DNA of 55,508 bases, from the NCBI RefSeq assembly GCF_900162685.1, contig NZ_LT727817.1, positions 1 to 55,508 on the forward strand, written 5' to 3'. Below the pieces are notes generated by a model, which was not told where the DNA came from, did no database searches, and saw nothing but the letters and a program-made list of their open reading frames with translations. How positions within the stretch are numbered: the first letter of the stretch is position 1; each line of letters opens with the position of its first letter. This DNA is from Terribacillus halophilus. GTDB lineage: Bacteria; Bacillota; Bacilli; Bacillales; Amphibacillaceae. The position numbers were made by a program, and so were the translations under genes. Of this stretch, positions 47,781 to 55,508 are shown piece after piece.

Positions 47781-48042
47781 GGTGACTTCCCCCTTCCAAT
47801 ATAAGCTTCCATTTCTGCTGCTTAGAGAGCTGTTTGATTCGATACTCCTCCCGCAATGCCGCTTGTCGCGTTCCGAATAATTGGAGGTATACCAAGATGA
47901 ATGGTCCTCTGCCTCTTGTATATTTCGCACCTTTTCCAGTTGCGTGCTGCTTTAAGCGGTTAGCAAGTGCATTCGTATATCCCGTATACAAACTTTCATC
48001 CTTGCACTTTAATATATAGACAACATGCTTATTTTCTCCCAT
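47758..48042 (-). CDS. yazA: GIY-YIG nuclease domain protein YazA
   Basis: A 94-residue UPF0213-type protein with [26 protein letters not shown] as its GIY-YIG core (tyrosines at VYI and TGY) and a downstream Arg/Glu pair in [11 protein letters not shown]. Cellular role unknown. It overlaps both rsmI and yabB. Confidence 0.92.
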
Positions 48043-48775
48043 ACAGGATTTCCTCTAATTCATCCGTATATCCCCCACTTGCAGTATGTGAATAAAGCGG
48101 AGGCAATACTTTTAAGCCAGGATTGCCATTACGTACCCCTTCGATTAACAGGATATTCGCTTCTTTATCAGGCTTCGGATAAACAAGCCGCATGCGTTTT
48201 GGCTCGATTTTCTGCTGACGCATCGACGTAACAATATCAAGCATTCGCTCCGGACGATGCACCAGACTCACCTTTCCTCCTGGTTTGACAAGCTTGCGGC
48301 AAGCCAGAATCACATCATCCAATGTACACATAACTTCATGACGAGCAATTGTCAGATGATCATTCAGATTTTGCTCGCGTTTGCCAGGCGTCTTGAAATA
48401 AGGCGGGTTACAAGTAACAGCATCGAAAGGACCGTTACCAAAGAAAGCCGGCATGTCTTTTAAATCCCCATGCACGATATCCAACTGTTCATCCAGCTCA
48501 TTTAATGTCACATTGCGTACTGCCATATCATAAAGGCGCCCCTGAATTTCAACGCCTGTAATTTGTGCTTTCGTTCTTCTGCTCATCAATAAGGGGATAA
48601 CGCCATTACCGGAGCATAAGTCTAATATTTTTCCCTTTGTAAGAGGAATAGATGCAAAATCAGCTAGAAGCACTGCATCTAATGAGAAGGCAAATACAGT
48701 CGGACTTTGGATAATACGCATATTTTGCTCCGCAAGCAGGTCGTCTAGCCGTTCATCTCCCTTTAATTCCACCAT
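48029..48775 (-). CDS. yabB: tRNA1(Val) A37 N6-methyltransferase family protein YabB
   Basis: A 248-residue SAM methyltransferase with [18 protein letters not shown] (motif I) and the adenine-N6 motif NPPYF. TrmN6-like. ATG 48775 ([13 protein letters not shown]) has GAGGGG ten bases upstream and agrees with family length. It overlaps yazA by 14 bp. Confidence 0.93.
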
Positions 48776-48805
48776 ACAACTAATTCCCCTCTTTATTTTA
48801 TTACA

Positions 48806-48840
48806 AAAAAGGACCTTCCCTACTGCGTGTAAGGAAGGCC
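48806..48840 (-). terminator. Terminator between yabA and yabB
   Basis: Minus strand: GGCCTTCC, loop, GGGAAGGTCC, then TTTTTT; ends transcription of the upstream group. Confidence 0.85.
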
Positions 48841-48846
48841 GCCACA

Positions 48847-49197
48847 TCATTTATTCTTATTCAAGAACGTCAAACAGAACAAGCAATCTTCATTACGTCT
48901 CGGACTGCCGAAGTGCACATTACAGATATGGAAACCTTCTTCATATAAACGCGCTAGGTTGTCATATCCTTCGCCAATCGGTGCTTCCTTAGACGGTGCG
49001 GCCTTGCTGCCAGCTTTTTGCTCCTGTGCAGCTTGGCCATCTAGACGATTGCGCAGATGATGATTCTCTACCGTTAAACGGTTGTTCTCTTCCAACAGCT
49101 CCGCTACATGACCTTTAACATCACCCAATTGCTTGTACAGCTGGCCGATCTGCTCTTCCATCTGTGTGACATGCTCCAGTATTTCCTTTTTATTCAC
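48847..49197 (-). CDS. yabA: Replication initiation control protein YabA
   Basis: Binds DnaA and DnaN to limit replication initiation. The 116 residues contain an N-terminal coiled coil (about 5-60, leucine heptads) that makes the tetramer, a linker, and a C-terminal zinc-binding domain with [19 protein letters not shown] ligands. Adjacent to ricT, as in B. subtilis. Confidence 0.95.
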
Positions 49198-49212
49198 CGT
49201 CTCTCCACCCCA

Positions 49213-50037
49213 TCAGTCCATGGCTTGCGTTGAGATAACTCCTTCTTCGATCAGTTCATCTAAGGTATACTCGATAACCCGTTCCTTCTCCGGTACTTCA
49301 ATCTGAATCAACCGTTCCAAAATGTTCAGGCCTACTACCTTACCTGATCCGTAAGAAGTCCGAATCGCTTCACCTAAATCCGGTAGCTCACGTTTCGCCT
49401 CTTCGTACTCATCATTTTCATACTTCAAGCAGCACATAAGCCTTCCGCATAAGCCGGAGATCTTCGCCGGATTCAGCGATAGGTTCTGATCCTTTGCCAT
49501 CTTGATAGACACTGGCTCGAAATCTCCTAGAAAAGTAGAGCAGCAAAGCATTCTGCCGCAAGGTCCAATTCCGCCTAGCAGCTTTGCTTCGTCACGCACA
49601 CCAATCTGTCTAAGCTCAATCCGAGTCTTAAATACTGCCGCTAAATCTTTCACCAGGTTACGGAAATCAACCCGGCCGTCTGCTGTAAAGTAGAAAATCA
49701 CTTTATTTCGGTCGAAAGTATATTCTACTTCAACCAAATTCATATCAAGTTTATGATCGCGAATCTTTTTCTCACAAACTTTATACGCTTGCGCAGCGTT
49801 CTCTGTATTTTCCGCCACACTATATTTATCTTTGTCTGTTGCGATACGAATAACCTTTTTCAGAGGAAGGACAATATCCTCTTCGTCTACTTGCTTATCT
49901 GCAAGTACAACTCGTCCGAATTCTACGCCGCGAACAGTCTCTACAATAACATAATCTTCCAGCGCAACAGAAAGGTTGCCTGGATCAAAGTAATAGATCT
50001 TACCCGCCTTTTTAAAACGGACACCAATGACTTGCAT
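49213..50037 (-). CDS. ricT: PSP1-domain protein RicT (YaaT)
   Basis: Subunit of the RicA-RicF-RicT (Y) complex, which carries Fe-S clusters and supports RNase Y mRNA maturation and Spo0A phosphorylation. The 274 residues include the PSP1 domain and cysteines in GPCGRMLCCSTFLG and SGLCGRLMCCLKYE. Confidence 0.96.
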   Translation of the reverse strand: MQVIGVRFKKAGKIYYFDPGNLSVALEDYVIVETVRGVEFGRVVLADKQVDEEDIVLPLKKVIRIATDKDKYSVAENTENAAQAYKVCEKKIRDHKLDMNLVEVEYTFDRNKVIFYFTADGRVDFRNLVKDLAAVFKTRIELRQIGVRDEAKLLGGIGPCGRMLCCSTFLGDFEPVSIKMAKDQNLSLNPAKISGLCGRLMCCLKYENDEYEEAKRELPDLGEAIRTSYGSGKVVGLNILERLIQIEVPEKERVIEYTLDELIEEGVISTQAMD

Positions 50038-50045
50038 CTACCAAT

Positions 50046-51032
50046 TCACCTCTGCATCTGAAGTGTTAATTTCTCCATAACAAGTGCAGGATGGACATTT
50101 TGATCTAATTGGCGTTTTGCTTCCATAATAGACTGCAAACAATCTGTAGCTCGCTGCCTCGTCCAATGGCGAAGGCTGTTTTCAAGCCTGTCTTTTTCCT
50201 GTATATAGATAATGGAATCCGGCCTGTCAGCATAAAGATAGATAATGTCTTTAAACCACAATAATAGCAGATGTAACGCCAGTTGCTGCAACTCGCGGTC
50301 CTTCATTACAGGCATCCATTGACTATGGACAAACAAAAGCGCTTCATTAGGCCTAGTTTCCAGCACTTCTACTAATTGTACCACTAGTTTTCGCGCTTTA
50401 GCAAACCACTCTTGCTCGGAAATCTCCATAGCTTCCTCATAATTGTTCGTCAACTGGGATAAAAGACGTGCTGAGGATTGTGATATTCCCTCGGAAATAA
50501 GCAATTTCGCAAATTGTTCTTCCTGTAATGGCTGCAGCGCTAGTATTTGGCATCTGGATTGAATTGTCTGAAGCAGAGCCTGACTATTCTCTGTCAGCAG
50601 AATTGCTGTTGTGTGCGCTCCAGGCTCCTCCAGAAACTTGAGCAGGCGATTGGATGCATTTGCTGTCATTTTATCCGCATCTTCCATGACGTATACCTTA
50701 CGTTCCGATTCCATACCTGTATAAGAAAATTCTTTCTGCAGCTTGAGAATCTGTTCATTCTTGATTGAAGCACCATCCGGAACAATCCAATGAAGGTCTG
50801 GATGGTTGCCAGAATCAATACGGCGGCAGTCCTTACAATCATTGCAAGGTTCAGCACCTTTGCGGTTCTTACAAAAAATACTTTTAGCATACAAGCGGCT
50901 CAATTCCGCTTTGCCAGTACCGCGCGACCCCTGAAATATGTAAGCATGAGATATTCGATCGCGTTTCAGACTGTTGATGAGCATTTTGCTCACCACAGGC
51001 TGCTTGGCAGACATTTCCGTCCAATTAGACAT
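50046..51032 (-). CDS. holB: DNA polymerase III delta-prime subunit
   Basis: Clamp-loader subunit of 328 residues: P-loop-like FQGSRGTGKAEL (about 33-44), zinc module CKNRKGAEPCNDCKDC, and RFLEEPGAHTTAIL, where the arginine finger region SRCQIL follows. Lies between yaaR and ricT as in B. subtilis. Confidence 0.95.
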   Translation of the reverse strand: MSNWTEMSAKQPVVSKMLINSLKRDRISHAYIFQGSRGTGKAELSRLYAKSIFCKNRKGAEPCNDCKDCRRIDSGNHPDLHWIVPDGASIKNEQILKLQKEFSYTGMESERKVYVMEDADKMTANASNRLLKFLEEPGAHTTAILLTENSQALLQTIQSRCQILALQPLQEEQFAKLLISEGISQSSARLLSQLTNNYEEAMEISEQEWFAKARKLVVQLVEVLETRPNEALLFVHSQWMPVMKDRELQQLALHLLLLWFKDIIYLYADRPDSIIYIQEKDRLENSLRHWTRQRATDCLQSIMEAKRQLDQNVHPALVMEKLTLQMQR

Positions 51033-51056
51033 ACTGTTCTTCCTTTATCAGTTACT

Positions 51057-51494
51057 TTACGTGTAAAGATTAAACAGGAGCCCTTTTATTTCTCCAATCA
51101 GTCCGAGAACACCAATCTGCTGCTTTTCTTGATCCATTAAGATCTCTGTCAGCTCCATTAGTTTCTCATCTATCTGGCGCACTGTTGTGAGTCGCCGGGC
51201 TCCGTTCTGGTTCCAGGAATGCTCATGATGCAGCTCCATTCCATTTTCCTTTACATCTTCCATGAATTTCTTAATCTTTCTTTTATATAAAGTAAGCTCG
51301 CGAAACGACCTTGTCTTTGCAAGCCGCTCTCCTTGCTTTGTGATGTCCGTTATCAGCTGCTGTAACTCAGCTCCTTGCAGCTTCCTGCTTTGAGACTGCA
51401 CCAAGTCCTGAAACCGTCTTGGTTCTGTTGGTGTCTGTGTTGTGTTCTTACGTGCTGCATCCAGCTGTGCACGTATCTCCGGACCGATTTTCAA
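51057..51494 (-). CDS. yaaR: DUF327 protein YaaR
   Basis: A 145-residue, mainly helical protein (SRKLQGAELQQLITDITKQGERL, YKRKIKKFMEDV). Conserved beside darA and holB across Bacillaceae; no established function. Confidence 0.92.
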   Translation of the reverse strand: MKIGPEIRAQLDAARKNTTQTPTEPRRFQDLVQSQSRKLQGAELQQLITDITKQGERLAKTRSFRELTLYKRKIKKFMEDVKENGMELHHEHSWNQNGARRLTTVRQIDEKLMELTEILMDQEKQQIGVLGLIGEIKGLLFNLYT

Positions 51495-51512
51495 CGGTAT
51501 AGTCTCCTTTAT

Positions 51513-51869
<357 letters not shown>

Positions 51870-52502
51870 TTACTTTTGCTTTAAAAAAGTCATGATCGCC
51901 TGCACAGCCTCTTCCGCTACTTCTGCAAGCGGCTTAGCAGCATCAAGTGCTACATAGCGGCTCTTGTATTGTTCCTGCAGGATCTGATACCCTTCATAGA
52001 CGCGCTCATGAAAGGATAAAGCCTCCAAGTCCAATCGATTCTTCTCTCTACCTTTATTCTCCGAGATTCTTGCTAATCCTTCTTTTGGAGAAATATCAAA
52101 GAATAGTGTCAAATCAGGCATAGTTGATTCGACAGCGAAGCGATTTATTTCCATCACTTCCTCCATTCCAAGTCCGCGTGTATACCCTTGATAAGCCAAG
52201 CTGCTGTCAACAAAGCGATCGCACAGTACTATCATTCCCTTTTCTAAAGCCGGCCACACCTTCTCTACTAGGTGCTGTCTTCTCGCCGCAGCATAAAGCA
52301 GTGCTTCTGTACGTCCATCCATTTTTGTATTAGACGGATCTAAGATTACAGCACGAATTGCTTCTGCAATCTCAATACCGCCAGGCTCACGTGTCGACAG
52401 CACTTGATAGCCTTCTTCCTCTAAACGAGCTGCTAACAGCGGAATGGCAGAAGTCTTGCCTGCTCCTTCTCCGCCTTCCAGCGTAATAAACAATCCTGTC
52501 AA
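51870..52502 (-). CDS. tmk: Thymidylate kinase
   Basis: Phosphorylates dTMP to dTDP. A 210-residue P-loop enzyme: [13 protein letters not shown] (about 5-17), [19 protein letters not shown] and the lid region [11 protein letters not shown]. Normal length. Confidence 0.97.
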
Positions 52503-52515
52503 AAATCATTCTCCT

Positions 52516-53925
52516 TCATTTGCTATACGTAAGCATCCCTTCTGCAATCCGTTCATTTTGAAAAGAGATGCTGCTATTCTTCCATAATTGTATCATTTCC
52601 ACATGCTGTTTTGTAACGATTTCTCCTTTTGCCAGTACCGGAATACCAGGAGGATAGGGAATAATCGATTCAGCTGCAATCATGCCGACTGCTTCTTCCC
52701 ATGCTGTAAATTTTGCCTGCTTCTGCTCCATCTCTGAATAGCTTACAGGTAGTTCGGTTATAGGTTGTGTAAAGAGGCGAACCTCATGCACAGGCATTCT
52801 GTGCGAACAGCTTCCTACAGCATTAATTGTCTCCTCCACTCGCTGCAGTTCTTCTTGCGACAGACTTTCGAGTCCATGCACGAGCAAAATATGCCGATCT
52901 GTGACAAGTTCTGGGTAAATACCGTGTGACTCCAGTTCCGCTGCAAGCTGTTTTGGCTGATAACTCGGCTTAACCCGCAGCACAATTTTCAGCCAGTCAC
53001 CATCCGGCTTTTCTACTTCCCAGCAATCTGATTGCGCAAGCACGCTCCGCAAAGTATCGATAGTCAACTGCAGGTTATTCATCTCCTCTGCTGAGCGTGT
53101 AGCTAAATACTTCCTTGCTGTATCTAGAGAAGCTAACAGCAAATAAGACGGACTGCTGGACTGCAGCATTCGTAAATAACGATCAATAGCGCCCACCTGG
53201 ACATAGCCCCCGATGTTTACATGCAAGTATGAGGCCATCGTGAATGCTGGAGCCATTTTATGCGCTGACTGAACAACCACATCTGCTCCAGCCTGCAGTG
53301 CACTTAGAGGAAGTGACTCTGCTGTTCGAAGATGCACGCCATGTGCCTCATCGATTAGCACTGGCATGTTTGCTGCATGTGCTGCATCTACTATAACTTT
53401 CAAATCGAAAACTGTACCATAATAATCAGGGTACGTTAAAATAAGTGCTTTTGCCTCTGGATACATCTTGATTGCTTTTATAACTGTATGCTGTGATGGA
53501 TGTGTATATCTTGCTTTCTCATCGTTGTACTCAGGAGCTAAAAATACCGGCTTCGCTCCTGCAAGTTCCAGTCCGTTTAATATGGACTTATGACAATTAC
53601 GCTGCACTAACACTGTCTCATTCTGTTGGATGGTCCCCAATATCATTGCCAAGTTACCGACAGTACTTCCGCCAACTAAGAAACGGGACTGCTGTGCTCC
53701 GAAGTAATCTGCAGCTAAATGCTGCGCTTTCGCAATTACTCCCTCCGGTGCATGCAAATCATCCAAACCTGACAATTCTGTCTGATCAAGACGTGCTGCG
53801 CGCCGGAAGAAATCCTCTTTCTGAAATAGCGCGCCATGTTTATGTCCCGGAACATGAAATGATATCGATTTTCGTTCAGCGAATTGTATTAAACTATCAT
53901 AAAGTGGCGTTTCTTCCTGATTCAT
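52516..53925 (-). CDS. yaaO: Orn/Lys/Arg decarboxylase family PLP enzyme YaaO
   Basis: A 469-residue fold-type I PLP enzyme, with PLP lysine in VQSAHKM (about 226), FHVPGHKHG at the N-terminus, VGGSTVGNLAMI and IDEAHGVHL. Related to arginine/lysine decarboxylases such as SpeA; substrate not shown. In B. subtilis xpaC and yaaN precede it; here gin is directly upstream. A TATAAT -10-like motif lies about 30 bp before the start. Confidence 0.9.
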   Translation of the reverse strand: MNQEETPLYDSLIQFAERKSISFHVPGHKHGALFQKEDFFRRAARLDQTELSGLDDLHAPEGVIAKAQHLAADYFGAQQSRFLVGGSTVGNLAMILGTIQQNETVLVQRNCHKSILNGLELAGAKPVFLAPEYNDEKARYTHPSQHTVIKAIKMYPEAKALILTYPDYYGTVFDLKVIVDAAHAANMPVLIDEAHGVHLRTAESLPLSALQAGADVVVQSAHKMAPAFTMASYLHVNIGGYVQVGAIDRYLRMLQSSSPSYLLLASLDTARKYLATRSAEEMNNLQLTIDTLRSVLAQSDCWEVEKPDGDWLKIVLRVKPSYQPKQLAAELESHGIYPELVTDRHILLVHGLESLSQEELQRVEETINAVGSCSHRMPVHEVRLFTQPITELPVSYSEMEQKQAKFTAWEEAVGMIAAESIIPYPPGIPVLAKGEIVTKQHVEMIQLWKNSSISFQNERIAEGMLTYSK

Positions 53926-53982
53926 TTCGTGTTTCTTCCTTTACTGATCTGTTTGTATTTATTATACGGACTAAAACAGAAA

Positions 53983-54008
53983 GAAAAAAGCCTGGTAAGA
54001 GGCTTTAG
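53983..54008 (-). terminator. gin terminator
   Basis: Minus strand: AAAGCCT, CTTACC loop, AGGCTTTTTTC; overlaps the gin stop codon. Confidence 0.75.
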
Positions 54009-54187
54009 TGGAAAGTCATTTGATTAAGGTTGCGAAGTTTCTTCACAAAATAATGATATTGCACTTCTTTTGGTTCAGTCTGGACAATTTTCTGTTCGCA
54101 TTCTCTGCATATAAAAAGGCGATACAGATGGATTCCTTCTTTTTTCTCTTGATCACATATACCGCATAAGCAACTTTTGCTCATCAT
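54005..54187 (-). CDS. csfB: Anti-sigma-G/E factor Gin (CsfB)
   Basis: Zinc-binding inhibitor that keeps sigma-G silent in the early forespore and later affects sigma-E. The 60 residues contain CGIC and CREC Cys pairs and GIHLYRLFIC, matching B. subtilis CsfB (about 64). Two adjacent ATGs (54187, 54184) follow GGAGGTGG. A sigma-F promoter is upstream. Confidence 0.93.
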   Translation of the reverse strand: MMSKSCLCGICDQEKKEGIHLYRLFICRECEQKIVQTEPKEVQYHYFVKKLRNLNQMTFH

Positions 54188-54205
54188 TCTCCACCTCCGT
54201 TAGGA

Positions 54206-54235
54206 TAGTTTCTCCTAAACTAACGAACTCTATAC
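54206..54235 (-). promoter_or_regulatory. gin sigma-F promoter
   Basis: Minus-strand -35 GTATA (54231-54235), 15-bp spacer, -10 GGAGAAACTA (54206-54215): full match to GYATA/GGNNANANTW. Confidence 0.85.
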
Positions 54236-54335
54236 CTGCTAACCTTGTATTCTAGCCTATGTTTGCCTAGATCAGATGTTGTTTGTACGCTTTGTACGTA
54301 TTGACGTTGTAAATTCAAGGACTAGCTGCCTTTTA

Positions 54336-54439
54336 TATACTATAGGAAACTCCCCTAGCAAAAGAGCCACAGGAATAACTGGTGGACGAGCAGCTTGGGA
54401 CTGTTTATAAAAGTCTTTTCAAACAGGCTAATTTTTTTT
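54336..54439 (+). ncRNA. Candidate structured RNA ending in a terminator, upstream of the split sigma operon
   Basis: A -10-like TATACT (54336-54341) with a weak -35 TTCAAG (54314-54319) would start RNA near 54348. That RNA could pair TCCC/GGGA (54351-54354 with 54397-54400), AGC/GCT (54357-54359 with 54392-54394) and CCAC/GTGG (54367-54370 with 54382-54385). A terminator-like hairpin CTGTTT/AAACAG (54401-54426) with eight T residues (54432-54439) follows. I recognise no known riboswitch class. Short stems make this tentative. Confidence 0.4.
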
Positions 54440-54443
54440 ACAC

Positions 54444-54449
54444 TAAAAT
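54444..54449 (+). promoter_or_regulatory. -10-like element of the split sigma operon
   Basis: TAAAAT is one base off TATAAT and abuts the LexA box. No convincing -35 hexamer lies 16-18 bp upstream, so promoter class is uncertain. Confidence 0.4.
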
Positions 54450-54463
54450 AGAACATATGTTCG
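54450..54463 (+). promoter_or_regulatory. LexA (DinR) box
   Basis: AGAACATATGTTCG matches the Bacillus SOS consensus CGAACRNRYGTTCG at every defined position except the first base. The core GAACATATGTTC is a perfect palindrome. It lies 22-35 bp before the sigma gene, just after a -10-like sequence, where LexA binding would block transcription. Confidence 0.8.
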
Positions 54464-54484
54464 TTTTGTGGAAGGGAGGACTGC

Positions 54485-55048
54485 ATGATGTGCAGCAAGG
54501 ATGATCAGACGCCAACTAACATACACCCAAATGCAGCCTTAATGAATGGATTCCTAAAAGAGAAAGAGCATCGTTTAATCTATGAGCAAGCAGTACGTCT
54601 TCCATCTGCTGCTAATCTAAGCCGGCTCAACTCAGCTTTTCAGCAATTTTATATTGAAATACAGTTGACCAATTATCTTACAACTACACTCAGTTTTTAT
54701 GCCAGCAATTACAGTAAACATGCTGCGAAGAAACAAAACCGGGAACTAGTTGTCCTTGATCAGCCAATTAATGAAGAACACGACAACAGTAAAAAGGACA
54801 TGCTTATTGCCAGAGAGGATCAGCAGGTGTATGGATGGGAAGAAGCAATTCAAGACCCTGGACTCTTTTCGGCGATACAGGAGCTCCCTGACAAGCAAAA
54901 AGAGTACCTTGAGCTGCGTTTCGTCCATCAGCTCACACATACCGAGATAGCAGACAAACTAGACATCTCTCAACAAGCCGTTTCAAAATCTATTCAGTCT
55001 GCACTTAAGAAATTGCGGACTGTTCTATCAAAAGGAGCATTACCATGA
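54485..55048 (+). CDS. sigO: Sigma factor C-terminal subunit, SigO-like (regions 3/4)
   Basis: A 187-residue protein whose C-terminal 60 residues are a clear sigma region 4 helix-turn-helix (ELPDKQKEYLELRFVHQLTH then TEIADKLDISQQAVSKSI). The N-terminal part lacks a recognisable core-binding region 2, which the downstream rsoA-like gene seems to supply. This is the architecture of B. subtilis SigO (YvrI), a two-subunit sigma factor. ATG 54485 or, with better spacing to GGGAGGA, ATG 54488 starts it. It overlaps yvrJ by 4 bp. Name is by architecture; direct orthology is unproven, and UviA/phage-type relatives are possible. Confidence 0.75.
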   Translation: MMCSKDDQTPTNIHPNAALMNGFLKEKEHRLIYEQAVRLPSAANLSRLNSAFQQFYIEIQLTNYLTTTLSFYASNYSKHAAKKQNRELVVLDQPINEEHDNSKKDMLIAREDQQVYGWEEAIQDPGLFSAIQELPDKQKEYLELRFVHQLTHTEIADKLDISQQAVSKSIQSALKKLRTVLSKGALP

Positions 55049-55197
55049 CAACCGATAATCTGATTTCTATGATTGGCAACCTCGGGTTCCCTATAGTCGT
55101 ATCATTTTATCTGCTCATCCGGCTTGAACAAAACATAAAGCGCCTGGAACAGACATTGCAGGCGCTTATTGAACAAATCCAGAAAGGAGAAAATTAA
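55045..55197 (+). CDS. yvrJ: YvrJ family small membrane protein
   Basis: A 50-residue peptide: one N-terminal TM helix (about 8-27, GNLGFPIVVSFYLLIRLE) then a charged amphipathic helix (EQNIKRLEQTLQALIEQI). This matches the YvrJ family and resembles BhlA/UviB holin-like peptides in layout. AAGGAG precedes the ATG, which overlaps the sigma stop as ATGA. In B. subtilis yvrJ neighbours sigO and rsoA. Function unknown. Confidence 0.8.
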   Translation: MTTDNLISMIGNLGFPIVVSFYLLIRLEQNIKRLEQTLQALIEQIQKGEN

Positions 55198-55198
55198 T

Positions 55199-55438
55199 AT
55201 GGAGAGCTTATTTGACCTGACACTTAAAGCAAAAGCTAACGACAGAGCTGCTATGGAAGCAGTGCTCCTCCGCTTTCAGCCAAAGATTAGAAGATTGAGC
55301 AACAGCGCTCCTCCTGCATGGAAAGAAGATATGGAGCAAGAACTGTATATTCAGCTGATTAAAGCAATTCATCGATTCGAAATGCAAGAGGTCGATCCAC
55401 AATGGAATCTTACACACTCAATCTATCCCGCCATATAA
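55199..55438 (+). CDS. rsoA: Sigma factor N-terminal (region 2-like) subunit, RsoA-like
   Basis: A 79-residue protein (SLFDLTLKAKANDRAAMEAV, LLRFQPKIRRLSNSAP, KEDMEQELYIQLIKAIHRFE) resembling sigma region 1.2/2 helices: the QELYIQLIKAIHRF part matches the QEGxIGLxxAxxRF core-binding helix of sigma-70 region 2.1-2.2. Its size equals my memory of B. subtilis RsoA. ATG 55199 has AAGGAG nine bases upstream and lies one base after the yvrJ stop; the open frame to 55169 is inside yvrJ. Predicted to pair with the SigO-like subunit on RNA polymerase. Confidence 0.72.
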   Translation: MESLFDLTLKAKANDRAAMEAVLLRFQPKIRRLSNSAPPAWKEDMEQELYIQLIKAIHRFEMQEVDPQWNLTHSIYPAI

Positions 55439-55439
55439 A

Positions 55440-55470
55440 AAATACCTGATCCATTTTGGATCAGGTATTT
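55440..55470. terminator. rRNA operon terminator (also end of the sigma operon)
   Basis: AAATACCTGATCC, ATTTT loop, GGATCAGGTATTT: 13-bp perfect stem. The T run is stronger on the minus strand (TTTTTT), as expected for the rRNA operon, but it can stop both convergent units. Confidence 0.92.
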
Positions 55471-55475
55471 CATCT

Positions 55476-55508
55476 TGCCTGGCAGCGTCCTACTCTCGCA
55501 GGGCGAAC
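55476..55508 (-). rRNA. rrf: 5S rRNA, 3' end (cut by window edge)
   Basis: The minus strand ends CCTGCGAGAGTAGGACG then CTGCCAGGC, the conserved 3' part of Bacillus 5S rRNA. Only about 33 nt are inside the window; the rest of the rRNA operon lies to the right. Confidence 0.92.

Follow-up and report, generated by a model that had tools for sequence, protein, structure and literature searches.

A probable split sigma factor operon related to SigO–RsoA, with a LexA-type box and a candidate self-promoter, in Terribacillus

SigO–RsoA (YvrI–YvrHa) of Bacillus subtilis divides a sigma factor into a region-4 and a region-2 part carried on separate proteins (PMC8103513 and PMC10028694), and the targets of the pair comprise its own operon as well as yvrJ and oxdC-yvrL (PMC8103513). 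UviA of Clostridium perfringens pIP404 and pBCNF5603 is presented in PMC4459074 as a putative sigma factor for a UV/SOS-induced bacteriocin gene, with a putative LexA site in the regulatory region of that gene and the small uviB adjoining uviA. For Xpf, a sigma-like factor of PBSX, a table in PMC10141391 describes a prophage gene product that unites both sigma domains in a single protein and is tied to the killing of the cell by the prophage upon DNA damage. UviA likewise combines region 2.4 with region 4.2 in a single protein, whereas in Terribacillus we find the sigma factor divided between two proteins, as in SigO–RsoA. Megacin A-216 of B. megaterium, the subject of Kiss et al. (2008, J Bacteriol 190:6448), is reportedly an inducible PLA2-like bacteriocin associated with lysis of the producer, and its induction is said to need a sigma-like protein of 188 aa together with a second gene. 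The Terribacillus copy differs in its chromosomal location, and for it we found no PLA2 target. Among the matches listed in a search by titles and abstract openings, covering few subscription journals, we found no report of SOS control of a split sigma factor.

The window, i.e., the whole 55,508-nucleotide stretch of Terribacillus halophilus contig NZ_LT727817.1 analyzed here, ends in an operon of three coupled genes that is convergent with a 5S rRNA gene (Table 1). The original prediction had described a sigma region-4 protein, a 50-residue YvrJ peptide and a 79-residue protein encoded between an rRNA operon and gin, and both the gene set and its placement are confirmed by open reading frames (ORFs) with Pfam and NCBIfam matches, and by comparison with relatives. 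Specifically, the sigma-like and yvrJ ORFs overlap by 4 bases, gin is recognized by PF10764, and in two related genomes (G002 and G007) a complete 5S gene of opposite orientation lies ~40 bp beyond the operon, with 23S and 16S genes next in line; in the window itself, Rfam left the 5S fragment at the contig end unscored. Terribacillus is a soil bacterium, and the sigma gene was present in all 10 of its genomes examined, at 66–100% identity (90% for T. aidingensis), with conserved proteins that rule out chance or an annotation artefact; gene order was identical in the seven of these 10 loci that were read out. A phage gene was also considered and rejected, the phage collection having yielded seven weak records, of which only two reached 80% query coverage, as was a second split sigma factor in the window's genome, where there is just one HTH_16 protein.

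Table 1 Features of the split-sigma locus, in window coordinates.
Feature	Position	Strand	Basis or remark
gin/csfB, divergent neighbour, outside the system	54005-54187	-	PF10764, E 2.2e-18
Candidate self-promoter GTTGT-N18-CCTTTTAT (GTTGT-N20-YTTTA element)	54306-54336	+	Sole GTTGT-N19-CYTTTAT match in the window, 0.02 expected
Possible sigma-A promoter TTTTCA-N17-TACACT	54416-54444	+	By eye from the alignment; weak match to consensus; just upstream of the LexA box
LexA (SOS) box AGAACATATGTTCG	54450-54463	.	Sole GAACRTAYGTTC in the window, 0.01 expected
SigO-like subunit, 187 aa	54485-55048	+	Sigma region 4 and probably the end of region 2
YvrJ, 50 aa	55045-55197	+	PF12841, E 2.6e-13; by eye, a single hydrophobic segment and a tail with charged residues
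RsoA-like subunit, 79 aa, region 2.1-2.2-like	55199-55438	+	HTH_16, E 1.8e-11
Hairpin between operon and 5S, possible two-way terminator	55440-55470	.	Fold of -19.5 kcal/mol
5S rRNA 3' end, cut by the contig end	55480-55508	-	Position and comparison with loci L046 and L047

Sigma region 4 is clear in the 187-aa protein (Pfam Sigma70_r4, E 1.1e-13). This protein had been predicted to be without region 2, which holds in so far as Sigma70_r2 is not among its Pfam matches; the general ECF model TIGR02937 (NCBIfam; 165 positions, cut-off 42.9 bits) argues for a more nuanced view. Since positions 38–164 of this model are covered by the 187-aa protein (62.1 bits) and positions 2–49 by the 79-aa protein at a non-significant 12.3 bits (E 0.094), the cut seems to fall inside region 2, the end of which (2.3–2.4) is probably retained by the larger protein. 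The region-2 likeness of the 79-aa protein, for which HMM and structure searches had been suggested, came out weak and non-significant, i.e., Pfam Sigma70_r2 stayed under its cut-off (E 0.016), and the ECF region-2 domains that ranked top among solved structures were matched at E 0.062 with the protein alone and 0.085 with a profile. Family alignments gave a TIGR02937 match in 20/20 members of the larger family, and an HTH_16 match in 20 of 21 members of the small family, five of which also matched Sigma70_r2; two residues of the 79-aa protein, P28 and Q47, are invariant across its alignment with 20 relatives. Overall, regions 4 and 2 lie on separate but linked genes, as in SigO–RsoA, region 2 being recognized through RsoA/HTH_16 likeness with Sigma70_r2 under its cut-off, and the 187-aa and 79-aa proteins likely form a two-part sigma factor. 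A relationship to the SigO–RsoA split sigma factor, YvrJ included, had been anticipated and is supported by the Pfam and TIGR02937 matches as well as by alignment of the 79-aa protein with a B. subtilis-type RsoA (L211, 28% identity).

Upstream of the operon we identified two elements that go beyond the original prediction: a LexA-type box and, farther from the operon, a candidate self-promoter. The box, for which a Firmicutes consensus is available (PMC2248561), recurs as GAACRTAYGTTC near the start codon, between gin and the operon, in 10/10 Terribacillus genomes. Within the window's genome, a gene for a Y-family polymerase has the same 12-base core 19 bp upstream, and lexA itself is preceded by GAACN4GTTC sites near the promoter, a placement that the box of the operon shares. 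Genome-wide, GAACN4GTTC sites showed no excess in this genome (34 vs. 68 for the reversed control), and most of the 20 read out of these 34 were inside genes; the box is thus telling because of its place and conservation, not because of its genome-wide frequency.

This association extends to other split-sigma genes. We assembled 76 of them, distinct by a 50-residue stretch and with RsoA or YvrJ within 2.5 kb, repeats being removed before counting, and tested the 400 bp upstream together with the first 60 bases of the ORF as called. A LexA-type box was found at 43/76 genes, including two (L060 and L200) where it falls inside the ORF as drawn by a simple caller, vs. 10 of 652 control ORFs, these counts referring to loci found mostly by likeness to the window's own protein rather than by random draw, and to controls taken from the other ORFs of the same loci without matching of intergenic length. 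Excluding Terribacillus, the box was retained at 33/66 genes, and it was seen at 14 of the 16 plasmid loci read; the 33/76 genes with no box include four B. subtilis-type loci. From this pattern we infer that the operon is under LexA/SOS control, the LexA-type box being what links it with the SOS-linked sigma factors of the megacin/UviA type. Elsewhere in Terribacillus, LexA-like boxes lie 20 and 38 bp upstream of ORFs of 129 and 91 aa (L089, position 1517, and L090, position 1478), neither of which is matched by a Pfam family at E 0.001; these are possible SOS genes of the genus.

The second element consists of GTTGT and CCTTTTAT, which are kept in 10/10 Terribacillus genomes on either side of a spacer that is constant in length and variable in sequence across the alignment. 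In the gene set above, it was detected upstream of 29/76 split-sigma genes (19/66 without Terribacillus) and 22/652 control ORFs. Its geometry is also recurrent: the spacing from GTTGT to YTTTA(T/A) is 20 in 20 of the 27 occurrences, some near-duplicates included, before split-sigma, YvrJ and RsoA genes outside Terribacillus. A spacing of 20 leads among control neighbour genes as well (6/14), which blurs the control, although we read the neighbours with this spacing as targets. Exact matches averaged 2.89 per genome in 46 genomes with a split sigma factor (listed at E about 1e-8 or better) and 1.85 in 110 without (one-sided p 0.002), compared to 1.63 and 1.93 for the reversed pattern, in a comparison whose GGTTGT pattern leaves out the Terribacillus self-promoter, which starts CGTTGT. 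The element looks like the own promoter of the split-sigma operons.

With two mismatches to the element allowed, the window's genome contained 157 matches vs. 214 for the reversed control, i.e., no excess, so that a regulon drawn from the loose pattern was rejected; because loose matches were fewer than reversed ones, the regulon is either small or the element imprecise. A stricter pattern yielded 62 matches across the genus vs. 13 for the reversed control, several of the 62 being one coding site repeated in related genomes and not independent. Two exact GTTGT matches counted among the 62, at C13:232339 (in a gene that we take to be rlmH) and C13:247373, were discarded as promoters since they lie inside genes and recur in related genomes. 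The element also precedes the gene of a secreted 764-aa protein (L213) in the window's genome, with matching patterns in G001 and G002. Two further sites were each listed for a single genome: one before one of two similar small genes adjoining a Lipase_3 protein (L214, 6126-6551), with the exact site in G007 alone among the Terribacillus matches listed, and one before a peptidoglycan-binding, Rv2525c-like glycoside hydrolase protein (L222; G002 C1:603019).

Among the element matches inspected, the sole target in 10/10 Terribacillus genomes is a gene encoding an Amidase_3 + DUF5776 protein, which has both an orthologue and the upstream element in every one of them and is the best candidate target of the split sigma factor. 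In this promoter the spacer is conserved in sequence too, and the -35/-10 footprint is less telling for that reason. The gene lies 22–24 kb from the operon in G002, G007 and G009, the three genomes with both on one contig. Its product starts MVKIYVDPGHGG, already within the catalytic domain, which begins at residue 3, and inspection by eye accordingly gives no evident signal peptide. YvrJ is possibly holin-like: 23 of 28 aligned YvrJ proteins matched PHROG 4898, a family named holin, at E ≤0.05 (best 2.8e-7; window copy weak at 0.0014), and among Pfam holin families XhlA alone was matched, by 1/28 (E 0.037). YvrJ is also found apart from sigma genes. The window's genome has a second YvrJ gene (G000 C13:758355; L001, 1483-1617), which adjoins two other small genes, presumably of the DUF1659 and DUF2922 families, with no sigma gene within the surrounding 3.1 kb.

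Taken together, we consider it rather probable that the operon encodes an SOS-induced, self-amplifying relative of SigO–RsoA that triggers lysis, in the manner of the megacin/UviA bacteriocin regulators. In undamaged cells, LexA would sit on the box and block the operon; DNA damage would remove LexA and allow the 79-aa and 187-aa proteins to be made, which may then assemble into one split sigma factor on RNA polymerase. This factor would recognize GTTGT-N20-YTTTA promoters, i.e., its own, giving positive feedback, and that of the endolysin-like amidase ~22–24 kb off, beyond the rRNA genes. YvrJ from the same operon could open the membrane, and the amidase, with no evident signal peptide, would thereby reach the wall and bring about damage-triggered lysis.

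Relatives on plasmids bear on this proposed output. We found 21 plasmid records matching the sigma subunit, of which 16 were read for sigma loci, and the neighbours there include an amidase with YvrJ, cell wall hydrolase and lysozyme, S8 proteases and glutaredoxins, and phospholipase-A2-like (PLA2-like) proteins. Three of 25 chosen plasmid neighbour genes are preceded by the element, namely those of the cell wall hydrolase, the lysozyme and a single PLA2-like protein; it is absent before the other 22, including 7/8 PLA2-like genes and both amidases, which speaks against a lysis switch. It also occurs before S8, glutaredoxin and other genes at L258, and before Cys-rich peptides at L052 and L204; we count the lytic or bacteriocin-like genes carrying the element outside Terribacillus as support for a lysis switch. 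PLA2-like proteins were present in 17 plasmid records, nine of which were also among the sigma-subunit matches listed, a parallel with megacin A-216, and a CC..HD motif is common to all eight PLA2-like genes compared, from seven plasmid records and one G053 contig.

An SOS-induced split sigma factor might instead have a main target other than lysis, e.g., in remodelling the wall, in taking up or releasing DNA, or in a function linked to spores, which we regard as unlikely but as the most serious of the competing explanations. Amidases also serve in wall remodelling, and an amidase is the only target seen in 10/10 genomes. No bacteriocin gene was seen among the Terribacillus element matches read out, and the weak PLA2-like matches (93-aa ORFs) in 3/10 Terribacillus genomes have no element upstream. 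This explanation has more difficulty with the plasmids, where an amidase, lysozyme or other wall hydrolase recurs with YvrJ next to split sigma factors.

We find it distinctly improbable that the operon is an ordinary SigO–RsoA orthologue serving acid or envelope stress, with a LexA box that is incidental. Such an orthologue would have the same three-protein set, and the B. subtilis pair has its own operon among its targets, next to yvrJ and oxdC-yvrL (PMC8103513). However, the 79-aa protein scored only 26.6 bits (25.4 in another run) against the curated RsoA model NF041489, far under the cut-off of 100, and a LexA box that recurs in 10/10 Terribacillus genomes and at 33/66 other split-sigma genes does not look incidental. 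Furthermore, neither the LexA box nor the GTTGT element was found by pattern (for GTTGT, also by eye) at the four B. subtilis-type sigO loci, i.e., those of the genomes whose RsoA passes the curated model. The next genes at these loci include one that is presumably oxdC, and no oxdC-yvrL was recognized among the ORFs of positions 48000-55508 of the window. The regulon is probably different from that of B. subtilis SigO–RsoA, as had been proposed, given the absence of the element from the four loci and an amidase as best candidate target. Least credible of all is that the 79-aa protein is a small DNA-binding or anti-sigma partner rather than sigma region 2, which would suit its Pfam assignment to HTH_16 and the weakness of its region-2 matches but not its alignment with B. 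subtilis-type RsoA, nor its weak match to a part of TIGR02937 that is absent from the larger protein.

Returning to the SOS-induced lysis switch, we tentatively extend it to the family, with less confidence than for Terribacillus itself. SigO–RsoA-type split sigma factors may for the most part act, on plasmids as well as chromosomes in Bacilli, as a widespread switch under SOS control that amplifies itself and sets off lysis and bacteriocin release, GTTGT-N20-YTTTA being their own promoter class and YvrJ the holin; the acid-stress SigO of B. subtilis would then be a re-wired exception, and Terribacillus a case in which the switch was fixed in the chromosome for damage-triggered lysis. On this view, the whole family acquires an input (LexA), a promoter and a target that can be put to the test, and the YvrJ family a possible role. 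It may also tie SigO–RsoA to the inducible megacins, a long-standing puzzle.

Two plasmid or contig loci show rearrangements around the split-sigma genes. On pGeo12b (L262, 2698-4989), one of the two of 16 plasmid loci counted as having no box, an IS21-family element sits between a LexA-like box and the split-sigma gene. On a 49 kb contig of G053 (C2; L101-L102), the split-sigma segment is duplicated, with the copies ~26.6 kb apart.
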